From positions 1-37,483 of the forward strand of contig JALWVU010000071.1 of NCBI GenBank assembly GCA_027079305.1: a stretch of DNA of 37,483 nucleotides. The letters are read 5' to 3'. A program made the translations under genes and the position numbers. The DNA is from Aquificaceae bacterium (GTDB lineage Bacteria; Aquificota; Aquificia; Aquificales; Aquificaceae). The notes under the pieces were generated by a model that did not search any database, was not told where the DNA came from, and was given only the letters and a program-made list of their open reading frames with translations. Below, piece by piece: positions 17,297-25,034 of this stretch (position 1 is its first letter; each line of letters opens with the position of its first letter).

Positions 17297-17502
17297 GAGG
17301 ATTTTAATGTGCATCAAAATGCCTTGATGTTTTGATGCTTTGATGATACTGTTCTGGGCAGGTTGATATGCAAGGTTTTAAGTGGGCTAAATTTTAATGT
17401 CTTTTGCAGGACCGGCGGTTTTCGGAAATTAACTTCACTTGCGGAGACAGGGAGTTGTATAAGTTATTGAATTGGCTTATATTATTAAACGGCTCGTTTG
17501 GG
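17297..17502 (+). promoter_or_regulatory. Probable CRISPR leader
   Basis: About 205 A/T-rich bases before the first repeat without a credible gene. It contains a perfect 9-bp inverted repeat GCATCAAAA (17311-17319) / TTTTGATGC (17330-17338), three copies of TTGATG at an exact 8-base period (17324, 17332, 17340), and the decamer ATTTTAATGT twice (17301-17310 and 17391-17400). The leader side is inferred because the degenerate repeat lies at the other end of the array. Confidence 0.6.
17455..17483 (+). promoter_or_regulatory. Putative promoter of the CRISPR array
   Basis: TTGTAT (17455-17460), a 17-base spacer and TATATT (17478-17483) match a sigma-70-type layout, ending 19 bases before the first repeat, so a pre-crRNA would start at about 17490. 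Confidence 0.5.
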
Positions 17503-18062
17503 GCTCCTAATGTGCCGTGTGGAGTTGAAAGATTTAATACCATGTTTAACAAGACAGTAATGATAATTGCGCTCCTAATGTGCCGTGTGGAGTTGAAAGT
17601 TCATTCAGTTTATAGTGGAAGGCGTATCTCGTATAAGCTCCTAATGTGCCGTGTGGAGTTGAAAGTGGCACAGGTCAATTGACAATCAATATAACTAAAA
17701 CAGGGCTCCTAATGTGCCGTGTGGAGTTGAAAGTGGAAAGCATTTGAAGAAAGGATTGAATATTGGTATGAGCTCCTAATGTGCCGTGTGGAGTTGAAAG
17801 TCAATATCCTTTTCCATAAATCAAAAGCGTTAATCTGCTCCTAATGTGCCGTGTGGAGTTGAAAGATTCTTCGCATAATCATAGTAATCTATACGTGGAT
17901 TGCTCCTAATGTGCCGTGTGGAGTTGAAAGCAATCATAAGCCTTTTTGATATAATTACCTTCTCTAGCTCCTAATGTGCCGTGTGGAGTTGAAAGGTAAC
18001 CATCCTTCGTAAAGATCCTCCTCCTTATTGAAAGTTCCTAATGTGCCGGGTGGGGCTAAGAC
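17503..18062 (+). CRISPR. CRISPR array, nine 29-bp repeats and eight spacers, no cas genes in window
   Basis: Repeats start at 17503, 17571, 17637, 17705, 17772, 17837, 17902, 17967 and 18034. The first eight are identical: they begin GCTCCTAATGTG, continue CCGT and end GTGGAGTTGAAAG. The ninth (18034-18062) keeps the first half but its 3' half has decayed (GGGTGGGGCTAAGAC), marking the leader-distal end. CTCC near the start can pair with GGAG near the end, and the 3' GTTGAAAG would be the crRNA 5' handle. Spacers are 36-39 bases and visibly A/T-rich compared with flanking genes. From memory the repeat resembles those of Aquifex aeolicus, usually tied to type I-B/III systems; this needs a database check. 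Confidence 0.97.
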
Positions 18063-18204
18063 AGAGACAAGGGATTTAAAACCTTTATCTACAGTTTTGA
18101 TCTAACTTAATCCTCCTGCAACCACCTCTTGCAGTCCGCCTATCGTTATAGTTTAGATTTGAGTTATACTTTATAGCCCGGAGATCTCTGCTGGAGGAAG
18201 GAAG
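18063..18204 (+). promoter_or_regulatory. Spacer between CRISPR array and ccsA, with ccsA promoter candidate
   Basis: Non-coding. A hairpin CTGCAA (18116-18121) / TTGCAG (18129-18134) with a 7-base loop lies mid-way and has no T tract. TATACT (18165-18170) is the best -10 for ccsA, with no convincing -35. The gene has a good ribosome site, GGAGGAAGG, ending 5-6 bases before its ATG, so this transcript would have a normal leader. Confidence 0.4.
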
Positions 18205-19506
18205 ATGGACCTGTATGAGTACGAAGCCTACGATAAGATCTTCAAGAAATACGGTATTCCCACGCTCAGGTATATGTTCGTTGATCACATCACCGAAGAG
18301 GTTGAGAACTTCGTAAACCAGCTGGGAGAGTGTGTTGTAAAATCTCAGGTCCTCGTAGGTAAAAGGGGAAAGGCGGGAGCTGTAAGGCTGTGCTCCTCCC
18401 CCGAAGAGGCCATCGAAGAGATCAAAACTCTCCTCGAGTACCCCGTCTACGGTGAGATGCCCGTGGGCGTCCTCGTAGTGGAGAAGGCCAACATCGTAAA
18501 AGAGCTCTACGCCTCCATAACCTACTCAACCGAGACGAGAGGTCCAGTCCTTACCCTCTCCCTCGAGGGGGGAGTAGACATAGAGGAGGTCCCGCCCGAG
18601 AAGATAGGCATATTCCCGATAGATCCTCTCAAAGGCCTTTATCCCCACATGGTCAGGAACTACCTCCTGGAGATGGGCTTTCCCCACGAATACATGTCTG
18701 TCCTGAGAGAGCTTTCGGAAGTTGTGGCCAACATGTACAAGGCCTTCTGGGAGGCGGAGGCGAGGCTCTTAGAGATAAATCCCCTTGCAATAGTGGACGT
18801 TGGAGGAAAGCTGAGGGTTAGGGCCCTCGATGCGGTGGTCAAGATCGACGACGACGCCTCCGTTCCCCCTGCCAAGATCTACGGTGTCAGGACAGCACTC
18901 AAGAGACCTCCTACCGAGAGGGAGATAGCGGCCGCGGAGATCGACAAGGACGACCACAGGGGAAAGGCTGGATCCTACGTGGAGATGGACGGGGACATAG
19001 CCATGATGACCTTCGGGGGAGGAGGTTCGACCGTTACCATAGAGACCACCTACGCAATAGGTATGAAGCCCGCCAACTTCACCGACATAGGCGGTAACCC
19101 TCCCGCGGAGAAGATGTACAAGATAACGAGGATAATCCTCTCCAAGCCTGGTATAAGGGGGGTTCTCGTCTGCGGAGGGACCGCCAACAACACCAGAATT
19201 GACGTTACCCTCGGCGAGGGAGTTGCCAACGCCATAAGGGATCTAAAGAAGGAGGGCAAGCTCGACCCCAACTGGATATGGGTCGTGAGAAGGAACGGAC
19301 CAGAGGCTGAGAAAGGTCTCAGGATGCTCTACGAGGCCTTCAAGGAGTGCGGTGTTAAAGGCGAGATCTACGACTCTTCCCTCCCTCTCACCGAAGCTCC
19401 TGTGAGACTCAAGGAACTCCTCGACAGGTGTGAGTCCAAGGCTGAAGAGGCAAAGGATCAAGAGAGGGTCCTCACCGACGAGCAGGCGAGCGACATGGGG
19501 GTGTGA
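18205..19506 (+). CDS. ccsA: Citryl-CoA synthetase large subunit (ATP-citrate lyase/SucC-like)
   Basis: A 433-residue ATP-grasp acyl-CoA synthetase subunit. In Hydrogenobacter-type reductive TCA cycles, citryl-CoA synthetase (CcsAB) makes citryl-CoA from citrate, ATP and CoA, and a separate lyase then cleaves it. Visible: VVKSQVLVGKRGKAGAV (45-60), matching the ATP-grasp lysine loop of SucC; ARLLEINPLA (187-195), the metal-binding Glu/Asn; MDGDIAMMTFGGGGSTVT (261-278); DIGGN (294-298); VCGGTANNTRIDVT (322-335). The length is above SucC (~390) and close to CcsA (~430). No small subunit (ccsB) is adjacent. The alternative is the N-terminal part of a split ATP-citrate lyase; SucC itself is less likely because the central loops differ. 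Confidence 0.85.
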   Translation: MDLYEYEAYDKIFKKYGIPTLRYMFVDHITEEVENFVNQLGECVVKSQVLVGKRGKAGAVRLCSSPEEAIEEIKTLLEYPVYGEMPVGVLVVEKANIVKELYASITYSTETRGPVLTLSLEGGVDIEEVPPEKIGIFPIDPLKGLYPHMVRNYLLEMGFPHEYMSVLRELSEVVANMYKAFWEAEARLLEINPLAIVDVGGKLRVRALDAVVKIDDDASVPPAKIYGVRTALKRPPTEREIAAAEIDKDDHRGKAGSYVEMDGDIAMMTFGGGGSTVTIETTYAIGMKPANFTDIGGNPPAEKMYKITRIILSKPGIRGVLVCGGTANNTRIDVTLGEGVANAIRDLKKEGKLDPNWIWVVRRNGPEAEKGLRMLYEAFKECGVKGEIYDSSLPLTEAPVRLKELLDRCESKAEEAKDQERVLTDEQASDMGV

Positions 19507-19517
19507 TATAAAAAGCT

Positions 19518-21314
19518 ATGGAAGTCCCGACCGGGAAGGTAAGGTGTTATATTACGGGTAAACTTAGAAGGGACACTCCGGAGGAGAGAGTAAGGCAAAG
19601 CGTTGCGAAAGCCTTAGTTGAAGAATACGGATACAGAAAAGAAGACATAGGGATAGAGTTTCCTATAAAGGTGGGCAGTTCTAAAAAGAGAGTCGATATA
19701 GCGGTATTTGAGGAGGGCAAGCCCCATACTCAGGAAAATATATACATCATAGTTGAAACTAAGAAGGAAGACGTTAAGCCATCGAATAAAAAGGAGGGTG
19801 TTGAGCAGTTAAAAAGCTACATGGCTTCCTGTATAAACTGTAAGTATGGTCTCTGGATAGGTAGTGAGAGGATAGCCCTTGAGAAAGTGAAGAAACTGGA
19901 TGTTTACGATTTTGAGGATATTCCGGACATCCCCCACGCTGGAGAGGCGAAACTTATCCGCCCCACAAGGAAAACTCTGAAAAGAGCGGTCAATCTCAAA
20001 CATGTTTTCAGAAGGATTCACAACTATATCTATGTCAATCAGGGGCTGCCTAAGGATAAGGCTTTTGAGGAGTTCCTCAAAATAATATTCGTAAAGGTCT
20101 ATGACGAGCAGTGGAGTGTAGGGAACTTGAAATTTTACATACTCCCGAACGAAGATATTTCAGATGTAAGGAAAAGGCTTGAGGATTTATTTGAAAGAGT
20201 TAAAGAAAACTATAGAGAGATTTTTAGACCTCACGAGAGGATTGAGCTTAACGATAGAGTTCTTAAATACGTGGTTTCGGAACTTCAAAGGTTCAGTTTT
20301 CTCGATACGGATACGGATATAAAGGGAGAAGCGTATGAGGAAATCGTTGGAGCTAACTTAAGAGGGGATAGAGGTGAATTCTTCACACCGAGAAATGTCT
20401 GTAACATGGCTGTAGAAATGGCTTTTGCTCTTTTCCCTCTTGAAAGACTTTTACAACCTGGGGGAATCAAAATCCTCGATCCTGCGGTAGGAACGGGAGG
20501 CTTCCTTATAGCCGGTTTGAATAAAATTAAGCAATTACTAAAAGAACACCTAAACCTCAAATACGATGAGCTAAGGGATAGATTAAGGCAGATAGCGGAT
20601 AGGAATTTTTACGGCATAGACTTTAATCCGTTTTTAGTGAAAGCTTCACAGATGAACATGGTAATGCATGGGGACGGCTACTCCAACATAGTTCATGCAA
20701 ACTCTTTGGAAAATCCTAAAGACTGGTCTGAGGAGGTTAAAAAGAAAATCCAATTAGAGAGCTTTGATCTTGTCATTACCAACCCGCCGTTCGGCAGTAA
20801 AGCCAGAATAGACGACCCGGAAATCTTAGCTCAGTATGAGATAGCACAAGGGAGCACGGGGCTACCTCCGGAACAACTTTTTATAGAGCGGTGCTATCAA
20901 TTTCTAAAGCCCGGCGGTATCATGGTAATAGTTCTTCCAGATAGCATACTGAGCAATCCCGGACTTAGAAAGATAAGAGAGTGGGTTCTTAGCAAGATGC
21001 AGATAATAGCCAGTATAGACCTTCCTACGGAAACCTTTGAGCCTTTTACAGGAACTCAGACGAGCATCCTTATAATGAGGAAGAAAACTCCAGAAGAAAT
21101 AAAATACGGAATCGGAAACTACGAAATTTTTATGACTATACCGCAGAAAGTGGGGCACGATAGGAGGGGAAATCCCTTATACAAGATGACACCTGAAGGA
21201 AACGTTATCTTGGATGAAAAGGGAAACCCGATCATAGACGACCAACTTTCCACAGTGGCGGAGCTTTTTAAGGAATGGTTAAGGAAAACGGGAGAGTTCT
21301 CCTATGCGGAGTGA
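19518..21314 (+). CDS. HsdR_N-type nuclease domain fused to type I-like N6-adenine DNA methyltransferase
   Basis: A 598-residue restriction-modification subunit. Residues about 20-150 match the N-terminal nuclease domain of type I HsdR: RVDIAVF with Asp60, then IIVETKKE with Glu80 and Lys82, the D...ExK spacing of PD-(D/E)xK enzymes, plus VEQLKSYMAS. From about 165 it is HsdM-like: a helical N-domain, EFFTPRNV (287-294), SAM motif DPAVGTGGF (321-329) and catalytic NPPF (422-425). No helicase motor domain is present. The layout predicts methylation and, if the nuclease is active, cleavage by one protein guided by the S subunit encoded next, which overlaps by 11 bases. Base composition is clearly more A/T-rich than ccsA and metE, indicating acquisition by transfer. 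Confidence 0.85.
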   Translation: MEVPTGKVRCYITGKLRRDTPEERVRQSVAKALVEEYGYRKEDIGIEFPIKVGSSKKRVDIAVFEEGKPHTQENIYIIVETKKEDVKPSNKKEGVEQLKSYMASCINCKYGLWIGSERIALEKVKKLDVYDFEDIPDIPHAGEAKLIRPTRKTLKRAVNLKHVFRRIHNYIYVNQGLPKDKAFEEFLKIIFVKVYDEQWSVGNLKFYILPNEDISDVRKRLEDLFERVKENYREIFRPHERIELNDRVLKYVVSELQRFSFLDTDTDIKGEAYEEIVGANLRGDRGEFFTPRNVCNMAVEMAFALFPLERLLQPGGIKILDPAVGTGGFLIAGLNKIKQLLKEHLNLKYDELRDRLRQIADRNFYGIDFNPFLVKASQMNMVMHGDGYSNIVHANSLENPKDWSEEVKKKIQLESFDLVITNPPFGSKARIDDPEILAQYEIAQGSTGLPPEQLFIERCYQFLKPGGIMVIVLPDSILSNPGLRKIREWVLSKMQIIASIDLPTETFEPFTGTQTSILIMRKKTPEEIKYGIGNYEIFMTIPQKVGHDRRGNPLYKMTPEGNVILDEKGNPIIDDQLSTVAELFKEWLRKTGEFSYAE

Positions 21315-22758
21315 ACATTTAACAAAAACCGATACAGAAGGTTTAAAATGGGTTTCAATACCGCTAAAGTTTATTCTTGAAGATAAGGAACTGAGATTAA
21401 ACGCTGGTTCTTATTCCCTTGAGTATATTGAAGCTGTGAGTGTAATTGAGAGTTTGAGAAATAAAGGATATGTGATAGAAAAGTTAGGAAAGTTAGCAGA
21501 AAAAGTTTTCGTTGGTGTGAGAAGTAAGAGATTATTCACTAACTCAAAAGAAGGAATTCCCTACTTAATGCCAGTGGATATCTTCAATTTTTTCCTACGT
21601 CCGCGCAAGTGGGTTAAAGTGCAAACGAGGGACTTAAATAATTGGTTCGTAGAACCTTATACAATTTTAATTACTCAATCTGGGGCTGTTGGCAGAACGC
21701 TAATAGCGAATGAATTATTTAAGGGAAAATCTTTATCTCCTAATCTAATCCGTTTCATCCCGAAGAAGGAACACCTAAACATCCTCGGATACATATACGC
21801 GTGGCTCAATACCAAATACTGTCAGGCTATGCTCACGAAAAATCTTTACGGTGCTACTGTAAAACATATAGAGCCTCACCACGTTGCGGAGCTTCCTATT
21901 CCGAGAATACATGAAGATAAAGAGCGTGAAATTCATGAATCCATTATGAAAGCTCATAAGTTAAGAGAATCCGCTCAGAAGATGCTGATGGAAGCGGAAG
22001 AGCTGTTTTATAAGGAGTTAAAACTCCCCAGATTGGATGAGGAACAGGTTGAATACTTTGGAGGTGAGAAAGGAAGAGAGGTTAAAGCCTTTACCATAAA
22101 ATCTTCCGAACTTGAGGATAGGCTTGATGCGGGGTATTATGTGCCATTAGCGAGAAAGTGTATAGAGATATTGAGGAATAATAGCTTAGGCAAAATAAGG
22201 TTGCTACATGAAGTTGCGGATGCTTTTGTTCCCCCGCGATTCAAGAGGCCTTACGTTGAAAATAAGGATGAGGGCGTAGCTCTAATTCAAGGAAAATACA
22301 TCCCCTTGGTAAGACTCTTGGAAGTCAAATACATTTGGAAAAGAATGAAAAACATAGAAAAATACAGAGTTAGAAAAGGATGGATATTGATAACACGTTC
22401 GGGAACTATAGGTCAGATTAGCTTGGTAAGTAGTTTGTTAGATAAACTTATAGGTTCAGACCATCTAATTAGAGTAATCCCCAAACAGATAAATCCCGGC
22501 TATTTAACCCTATTTCTTCTTAGCGATTACGGTCAGGTTCAATTTAAAAAACTGATTTACGGTGGAGTTGTGGATGAAATAGGAGAAGCGGGAGAGCTAT
22601 TTAAATATATTCAAATTCTCAAACCTAAAGACGAAAACTTAGAAAAAGACCTCGGCTCACTCGTCCTCTCCGCCTACGAAAAGAAAGACTTGGCAAATAA
22701 GATTGAGCAAGAAGCGGTAGAGAAGTTGGAATATTATATGAAGGAGGTTCTGATATGA
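21304..22758 (+). CDS. hsdS: Type I-like specificity (S) subunit with two target-recognition halves
   Basis: A 484-residue HsdS-like protein that would set the DNA target of the methyltransferase/nuclease. It is a tandem duplication: each half starts with RLxAGxY (RLNAGSY 31-37, RLDAGYY 273-279, 242 residues apart). Each contains ILITxSG ([11 protein letters not shown] at 121-131; [11 protein letters not shown] in the second half) and a [10 protein letters not shown] or [10 protein letters not shown] strand. Helical spacers follow (about 203-240 and 445-480). Two recognition domains imply a bipartite target. It overlaps the upstream gene by 11 bases, and its stop overlaps the metE start (ATGA). 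G+C is low (19 of 60 bases at 21421-21480). Confidence 0.9.
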
Positions 22759-25034
22759 AAGCTATCGCCTTCGGGTTTCCCAAGCTGGGAGAGAAGAGAG
22801 AGTTTAAAAAGTTGTTGGAAGACTTCTGGAAGGGAAAGATAAGCGAGGAGGAGCTCCACGCGGGAATGAGAGATCTCGCCCTCTGGAGGGCTGAGCTTTA
22901 TAAAGAGAGCGTGGATGTAATACCTTCCAACGAACTCTCCTACTACGACTTCATGCTCGACACAGCCCTAATGGTGGGGGCCATCCCCCAGAGGTTCGGC
23001 GAATACAGGGGAATGGAAACCTACTTCGAGATGGCCAGAGGCAAGAACGCCCTCGAGATGACCAAGTGGTTCAACACCAACTACCACTACTTAGTCCCCG
23101 AGATAGAGAGGGAAGAGTTCAGACTATTCATAAACAAGCCCCTCAACGACTACGAGTTCTACAAAAAGAAGGGCTACGAGACCGTCCCCCAGATAATAGG
23201 CCCCTATACCTTCCTCAGGCTCTCCAAAGCTTTAAGAAAAAAAGAGGGAGAGCTCCCCATCTACGAAATAGAGAAGATAGAGAGCAAAGAGCAGTTCGAG
23301 AGGCTAACCGAAAAGCTGATACCAGTATACAGAGAAGTTCTCGAGTCCCTCAAAAAGGCTGGCTGTAAAAGAGTCCACATAGAGGAGCCCGCCCTCGTCC
23401 TCGACACCGAAGACTGGCAGTGGGATCTGGTTGAGAGGATCTACGGAGAGCTTTCCAAGGTAGGGATAGAGATAGCCCTCTTTACTTACTACGACAGCGT
23501 CTCAGACTACGAGAGGTATATCTCCCTTCCCGTTCAGGCACTTCACCTTGACCTCGTCTCCAACAGGGAGAACCTCCAGAACATCAGGGAAAAGGGCTTT
23601 CCCAAAGAGAAGGAGCTCATAGCTGGAATCATAAACGGGAGACAGCCCTGGAGGGCGGACCTCTCTGAAAAGCTCAAGCTCCTGGAGGAGCTCTCAAAGA
23701 TCACGGAAAACCTCTCCGTCTCCAACTCATGCCCCCTCTACCACCTTCCCGTGAGCGTGGAGCCAGAAGAAGACCTCCCCGAAGGCCTAAAGGAGAGGCT
23801 CTCCTTCGCAAAGGAGAAGCTCAGAGAACTTAAAACCTTAAAGACCGCCTTCGGCGGTGATAAAGAAGCTCTGAAGGAGGTCGAAAAGACCAGAAAGCTC
23901 TTAGAGATCAGCTTCGGCGAGAACGCGGAGGTCAGGAGGAGGATAACGGCCCTCAAGGAGGAGGACTTCAGGAGGGAGCTCCCTTACGGGGAGAGGGACA
24001 AGATCCAGAGGGAGATACTCAAGCTTCCCCTCTTCCCGACGACTACCATAGGCTCATACCCCCAGACGGAAGAAGTCAGGAAGATGAGAACCGCCTACAG
24101 AACGGGGAAGATAAGCGAGGCCCAATACAAGGAGTTCATCAAGAAGCAGATAGAGCACGTGATAGCCTTCCAGGAGGAGGTGGGGCTCGACGTCCTCGTC
24201 CACGGGGAGTTCGAGAGGACGGACATGGTCGAGTTCTTCGCCTTCAAGCTCGACGGCGTTGCCACCACCAAGCACGGCTGGGTCCTCTCTTATGGATCAA
24301 GAGTCTACAGGCCTCCCATAATCTACGGAGACGTTTCGAGGCCAAAGCCCATGACCCTCGAGGAGATCACCTACGCCCAGTCTCTGACAGAGAAGCCCGT
24401 TAAGGGAATGCTCACGGGCCCCGTAACCATCCTCAACTGGAGCTACTACAGGGAGGATGTTCCCAAGAGGGTCATAGCCTACCAGATAGCCCTCGCCCTT
24501 CTGGATGAGGTTAGGGATCTCGAAAAGGCGGGAATAAAGGTAATCCAGATAGACGAGCCCGCCTTCAGGGAGGGCGTTCCCCTAAAGAGAAAGGACTGGG
24601 CGGAATACTTCGACTGGGCGGTCAAGGCCTTCAGACTCTGCTCCAGAGCCAAGCCCGAGACCCAGATCCACACCCACATGTGTTATTCGGAGTTCAACGA
24701 GATTATCGAATACATCTACCAGATGGACTTCGATGTCATCTCCATAGAAGCCTCCAGGAGCAAAGGGGAGATAATATCCGCCTTCGAAAGGTTCAAGGGC
24801 TGGGACAGGCAGATAGGTATAGGCGTTTACGACATCCACTCGCCCGCTGTCCCTTCCAAAGAGGAGATGAAGATGGTCATGGAGAGGGCGATGAAGGTCC
24901 TTCCCAAAGAACTTCTCTGGGTGAACCCCGACTGCGGACTGAAAACGAGAAGATGGGAAGAGGTAGAACCCGCCCTCAAGAACATGGTGGAGATGGCTAA
25001 AGAACTGAGAGAGGAGGTGATGGCTGGGGTTTAA
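22755..25034 (+). CDS. metE: Cobalamin-independent methionine synthase
   Basis: A 759-residue MetE transferring a methyl group from 5-methyl-tetrahydropteroyl-polyglutamate to homocysteine. It has the two-barrel layout: N-terminal domain to about 390, then the C-terminal catalytic domain from [12 protein letters not shown]. Zinc ligands are in place: His641 and Cys643 in HTHMCYSEF, and Cys727 in [22 protein letters not shown] and [11 protein letters not shown] are the substrate-binding blocks. AAGGAGG (22741-22747) lies inside the end of hsdS and ATGA joins the two genes. G+C is high (38 of 60 bases at 24181-24240), like the chromosome and unlike the preceding restriction genes, so metE is probably resident and the pair upstream inserted. 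Confidence 0.96.

Follow-up and report, generated by a model that had tools for sequence, protein, structure and literature searches.

Can a DNA methyltransferase that carries its own nuclease domain, paired with a specificity subunit, restrict DNA without a translocating motor? The question is raised by two adjoining genes in the window (the whole 37,483-nucleotide stretch analysed, contig C71 of a 2.01-Mb Aquificaceae genome in 75 contigs). Like classical Type I restriction-modification (R-M) systems they specify an HSDR_N-type nuclease, an HsdM-type methyltransferase, and an HsdS, but the cassette has neither the SWI2/SNF2 motor nor the separate HsdR of those systems. We judge the cassette likely to be a self-contained Type IIB-like R-M system, predicted to cut at a short fixed distance without ATP or translocation.

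The cassette and its insertion site

The RM subunit gene (19518..21314, + strand) encodes 598 aa comprising a nuclease domain, a helical connector, and a gamma-class adenine methyltransferase, and overlaps by 11 bp the S subunit gene (21304..22758, + strand; 484 aa), in which a TRD-CR unit occurs twice (about residues 20-245 and 262-475). The PD-(D/E)xK nuclease domain (residues 21-139; 19578..19934, + strand) matched Pfam HSDR_N_2 (E=1e-22, 80.8 bits, cut-off 25), and the N6-adenine methyltransferase domain (residues 265-526; 20310..21095, + strand) matched N6_Mtase PF02384 (E=1e-34). The methyltransferase motifs DPAVGTGGF (20478-20504, + strand) and NPPF (20781-20792, + strand) were intact in RM. 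The first-pass annotation had described a 598-residue fusion of an HsdR_N-type nuclease to HsdM and had named Asp60, Glu80-x-Lys82, and both methyltransferase motifs; the domain searches bore out the fusion, and all of these residues were found at the positions it gave. It had also called the next gene a two-half HsdS. That gene matched Pfam Methylase_S (E=1e-11), and its halves share 28% identity (E=2e-15), a homology that makes it a two-TRD subunit.

By Pfam annotation, the cassette is flanked upstream by a ccs-like ATP-grasp gene and downstream by metE; argS lies still farther upstream. In at least eight sister genomes metE directly follows the ccs-like gene and the cassette is absent. The empty site of the sister genome G016 has GTGTGATATGAAAGC at the junction. 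Against this reference, the insert carries an imperfect copy of the metE start at its left edge (19504..19519, TGATATAAAAAGCTAT), and at its right edge (22751..22765, TGATATGAAAGCTAT) the stop of S and the start codon of metE overlap (ATGA). The two edges form an imperfect 15-16 bp duplication. The insertion is exact, both cassette genes are intact, and no integrase gene was found at the insert edges. The cassette has a GC content of 40.3%, against 55.0% for ccs and 53.0% for metE. A close copy of the cassette occurred in 2/136 genomes of the phylum; within the genus, the 16 other genomes all lacked one. Given the empty sister sites, the low GC, and this rarity, the cassette reads as a recent horizontal acquisition. 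A CRISPR-like array (17490-18064; nine copies of ~29 nt, GCTCCTAATGTGCCGTGTGGAGTTGAAAG, at 65-68 nt spacing) lies just upstream of ccs and the cassette.

Nuclease fold and comparison with Type IIB enzymes

Searching the PDB with the nuclease domain by sequence only returned nothing significant, just chance matches such as chitinases, so a fold comparison was needed. An AlphaFold2 model of residues 1-170, built from an alignment of 27 relatives, was confident (pLDDT 88.9) and consisted of a helix (21-35), three strands (44-52, 55-64, 75-81), a second helix (95-104), and a fourth strand (110-114). This alpha-beta-beta-beta-alpha-beta order is that of the PD-(D/E)xK core. BsaXI ranked first among PDB structures in Foldseek (E=1e-4, probability 1.00); the HsdR fragment 3h1t came second (0.98) and the Card1 nuclease fifth (0.85). 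TM-scores were modest (0.37-0.43). The fold expected for the N-terminal residues was thereby recovered. With the whole RM chain (AlphaFold2 pLDDT 87.8), BsaXI was again the top PDB fold match (E=8e-28 over 634 columns; best HsdM 8e-16).

The profile of the family placed D60/E80/K82 on BsaXI D90/E105/K107, in an alignment whose nuclease part by itself scores just 10 bits. Identity to BsaXI is low, at about 20%. All three BsaXI residues are essential by alanine mutation (PMC11997821). Asp60 (19695..19697, + strand) is thus the predicted catalytic Asp, and Glu80-Thr81-Lys82 (19755..19763, + strand) supplies the (D/E)xK pair. Glu47 (19656..19658, + strand), the acidic residue ahead of the catalytic Asp, adjoins BsaXI E73/E75 in the alignment; its exact partner of the two is uncertain, and only E73 is essential in BsaXI (PMC11997821).

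The layout is that of the Type IIB RM+S enzymes, with nuclease and methyltransferase in one chain, a separate two-TRD S, no translocase, and an N-terminal PD-(D/E)xK site homologous to that of BsaXI. BsaXI itself (Type IIB, RM+S; 8w0p) shares the PD-(D/E)xK domain, helical connector, and gamma methyltransferase in one chain, together with a two-TRD S chain. However, BsaXI is 916 aa long with a C-terminal knob and paddle, and the window RM, ending at 598 aa, is too short for a BsaXI-type paddle, residues of which are required for BsaXI cutting (PMC11997821). BcgI, the Type IIB archetype (A2B), was compared by its published description and likewise combines an RM subunit with an HsdS-like subunit (PMC3874165) and lacks a translocase, its A chain being R fused to M (PMC4027205). 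The BcgI-like arrangement suggested by the first-pass annotation was therefore upheld. The contrast that it drew with BcgI-type enzymes, on the strength of an HsdR-family nuclease, did not survive, since the best solved match was the N-terminal domain of a Type IIB enzyme, BsaXI. AlphaFold models place the BcgI nuclease apart from other Type IIB nucleases (PMC11997821).

Because BcgI is already an R-M fusion and 8/16 sequenced Type IIB enzymes have the RM+S arrangement (PMC11997821), pairing a nuclease with HsdM is not new. The two-gene cassettes are best described as a coherent new family within a known, Type IIB-like kind. Less ordinary are its sister relation to MADS and the sharp division of nuclease sites into intact and dead ones.

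The two-gene family and its relation to MADS

A scan of 84,980 species genomes yielded eight relatives of RM at 57-67% identity, hosted by Aquificales, Bacillota, Thermococcaceae, Borrarchaeum, Methanobrevibacter, and one unclassified archaeon. The nearest named relative of the RM gene lies in an Aquificales MAG, and apparently that same locus, with identical proteins, is found in a genome (G027) of the window's own family. Viral-contig, plasmid, and phage searches added further relatives at about 42-54% identity. Altogether the cassette is spread over Aquificota, Bacillota, Actinobacteria, Alphaproteobacteria, three archaeal lineages, plasmids, and prophages. The S gene directly follows RM in nearly all loci, nearly always overlapping it, and the flanking genes vary by locus. 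E47, D60, E80, K82, and Q97 were kept in 30/30 two-gene RM proteins of the final tree. The first TRD of the window S is closest to that of locus L035 and the second to those of L036/L038 (up to 92% identity in a 24-residue block); different nearest relatives are expected if TRDs are exchanged.

Individual copies varied. In the Methanobrevibacter copy (L041, 10340-10460) a frameshift, either a real mutation or a sequencing error, parts the nuclease domain from the methyltransferase, and the S gene of L037 is broken in the available data. The two-gene copy on an Arthrobacter plasmid (L126, 7962-10543) has an annotated methyltransferase that begins past the nuclease domain, and the 860 bp checked upstream on the same strand showed no such domain. 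Encoded directly upstream of an archaeal copy (L039, 159-4505), a 1448-aa protein weakly matches NACHT/STAND NTPases and may represent another defence gene.

The best NCBIfam families for the window proteins were MAD2 for RM and MAD5 for S, with scores under both cut-offs (558 < 720 and 334 < 400 bits). As gene roles in MADS we used the NCBIfam names. A scan for MADS MAD2 with a single-protein query matched nothing, and one with an alignment query succeeded. MADS MAD2/MAD5 resemble the window pair in being its closest curated families, in domain order, and in having adjoining M and S genes in most loci. They differ in that the MADS copies are without the nuclease site that the window RM keeps, and the window cassette, flanked by ccs and metE, has no MAD3, MAD6 kinase, MAD7, or MAD8 as a neighbour.

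Every MADS-locus MAD2 examined had lost E80 and K82, and Glu47 was changed in most. Five of the site-lost copies (L053, L054, L078, L131, L134) adjoin genes that NCBIfam assigns to MADS (MAD3, MAD5, MAD6, MAD7, or MAD8); L121 is accompanied by annotated S and kinase genes, and its plasmid also carries a MAD7 match; L129 (on a short contig) and L123 (interrupted, unannotated) look like other site-lost MAD2 copies. A solitary MAD2-like protein on a Streptomyces plasmid (L122, 11842-14058) has also lost the nuclease site, with neither an annotated S gene nor MADS neighbours. More distantly related enzymes that likewise have the nuclease ahead of the methyltransferase retain the site (L016-L018, L055-L058, L138); among them L124 has Gln in place of Glu47. 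Nuclease site and gene context agreed with zero exceptions (30 intact, 7 lost; Fisher p=1e-7, a value that treats related sequences as more independent than they are).

In a tree built on methyltransferase columns only, MAD2/MAD5 of MADS formed a sister branch of the two-gene family, and the window RM fell inside the starred two-gene clade, apart from MADS. The state of the nuclease site requires two changes on this tree; a single origin of MADS was not rejected (AU p=0.33), though MADS copies may have had several origins. As the outgroup has an intact site, loss is the direction of change, and MADS apparently derived from a nuclease-competent enzyme of the two-gene type. We did not find the sister relation to MADS or the split between intact and dead sites stated in the literature covered, with the original MADS paper outside that coverage. 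With slight preference, we read the two-gene cassettes as an undescribed, widespread, nuclease-competent Type IIB-like family ancestral to the MADS modification module, in which the nuclease would have been switched off when kinase and ATPase genes joined and restriction passed to other subunits.

The same relationship provides the strongest alternative for the cassette, that of a methylation-only module in which the nuclease domain clamps DNA or has a structural role, with the pair marking DNA as MAD2 and MAD5 probably do in MADS. The family matches fit such a module, and a non-catalytic role is conceivable in that MADS keeps the nuclease fold without its active site. Yet the catalytic residues are invariant in all intact two-gene copies and lost in all MADS copies, which argues for selection on catalysis when other effectors are absent, and MAD7 was absent from the window's genome in a search that detected its positive controls. 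We regard marking alone as unlikely; the clamp-only role that the first-pass annotation had offered as an alternative is disfavoured by the same invariance. The window RM+S is probably a nuclease-active enzyme.

Source of restriction activity and proposed mechanism

No match to hsdR was found on the window's contig, in keeping with the annotation's statement that none lay nearby. Its picture needs one correction, in that hsdR is present elsewhere in the genome, in a separate, apparently decayed classical Type I locus (genome G000, C37:9644-15495 and C55:1-2227; L043, L044). The recurrence of the cassette in other lineages, the relation to MADS, the signs of foreign insertion, and this Type I locus were not noticed in that annotation. 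This locus, the sole other Type I system in the genome, has its own hsdM-hsdS. Aligned with a related HsdM, its HsdM covers residues 12-328 and then resumes at 473-510, so that ~145 codons are missing, and its hsdR, which runs across the contig break, shifts reading frame twice. It also contains an ORF after hsdM that looks HEPN-like by eye and a 581-aa ORF without a Pfam match.

Could the window pair nonetheless be a Type I M/S pair that borrows this HsdR for ATP-dependent restriction? The presence of hsdR here and in some other hosts would allow it. Against it, the RM protein already carries its own nuclease domain, hsdR was absent from three host assemblies (all drafts), and the deletion in hsdM and the frameshifts in hsdR make it unlikely that the C37/C55 locus could supply a working HsdR, with assembly error at the contig ends a possible source of the damage. 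We found no motor-bearing HsdR partner for the window HsdM/HsdS and rejected completion of the system by an unlinked HsdR, an arrangement that we consider very improbable. Least probable of all, if by little, is that the pair is what is left of a MADS or Type I locus after decay and loss of its other genes: homology to MAD2/MAD5 with a score under the MAD2 cut-off and a decaying Type I locus in the same genome would suit this reading, but the cassette keeps the nuclease site that MADS copies lack, falls in the two-gene clade apart from MADS, recurs as the same two genes alone in distant hosts, and is an exact insertion with both genes intact.

For a self-contained Type IIB-like system, we infer catalysis, a 2:1 assembly, the cut positions, and the site as follows. 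By the stoichiometry of Type I and Type IIB systems, one S chain would hold two RM chains on a bipartite site, and the methyltransferase would add one 6mA per half-site. At an unmethylated site the N-terminal PD-(D/E)xK domains would cleave DNA a short, fixed distance away, probably to either side of the site, with nuclease domains of several site-bound complexes probably acting in pairs. Neither ATP nor translocation would be required, and cleavage is expected close to the target. Most likely, then, the cassette marks the DNA of its host and, free of a motor, cuts DNA that lacks the mark.

The host bacterium is heat-loving. The cassette specifies a compact enzyme that is probably heat-stable and should need no ATP to cut at a new bipartite site; the S halves, with their different nearest relatives, look exchangeable. 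Through the family, simple Type IIB enzymes also gain a concrete connection to MADS, a multi-gene phage-defence system whose marking subunit resembles a restriction enzyme with disabled scissors.
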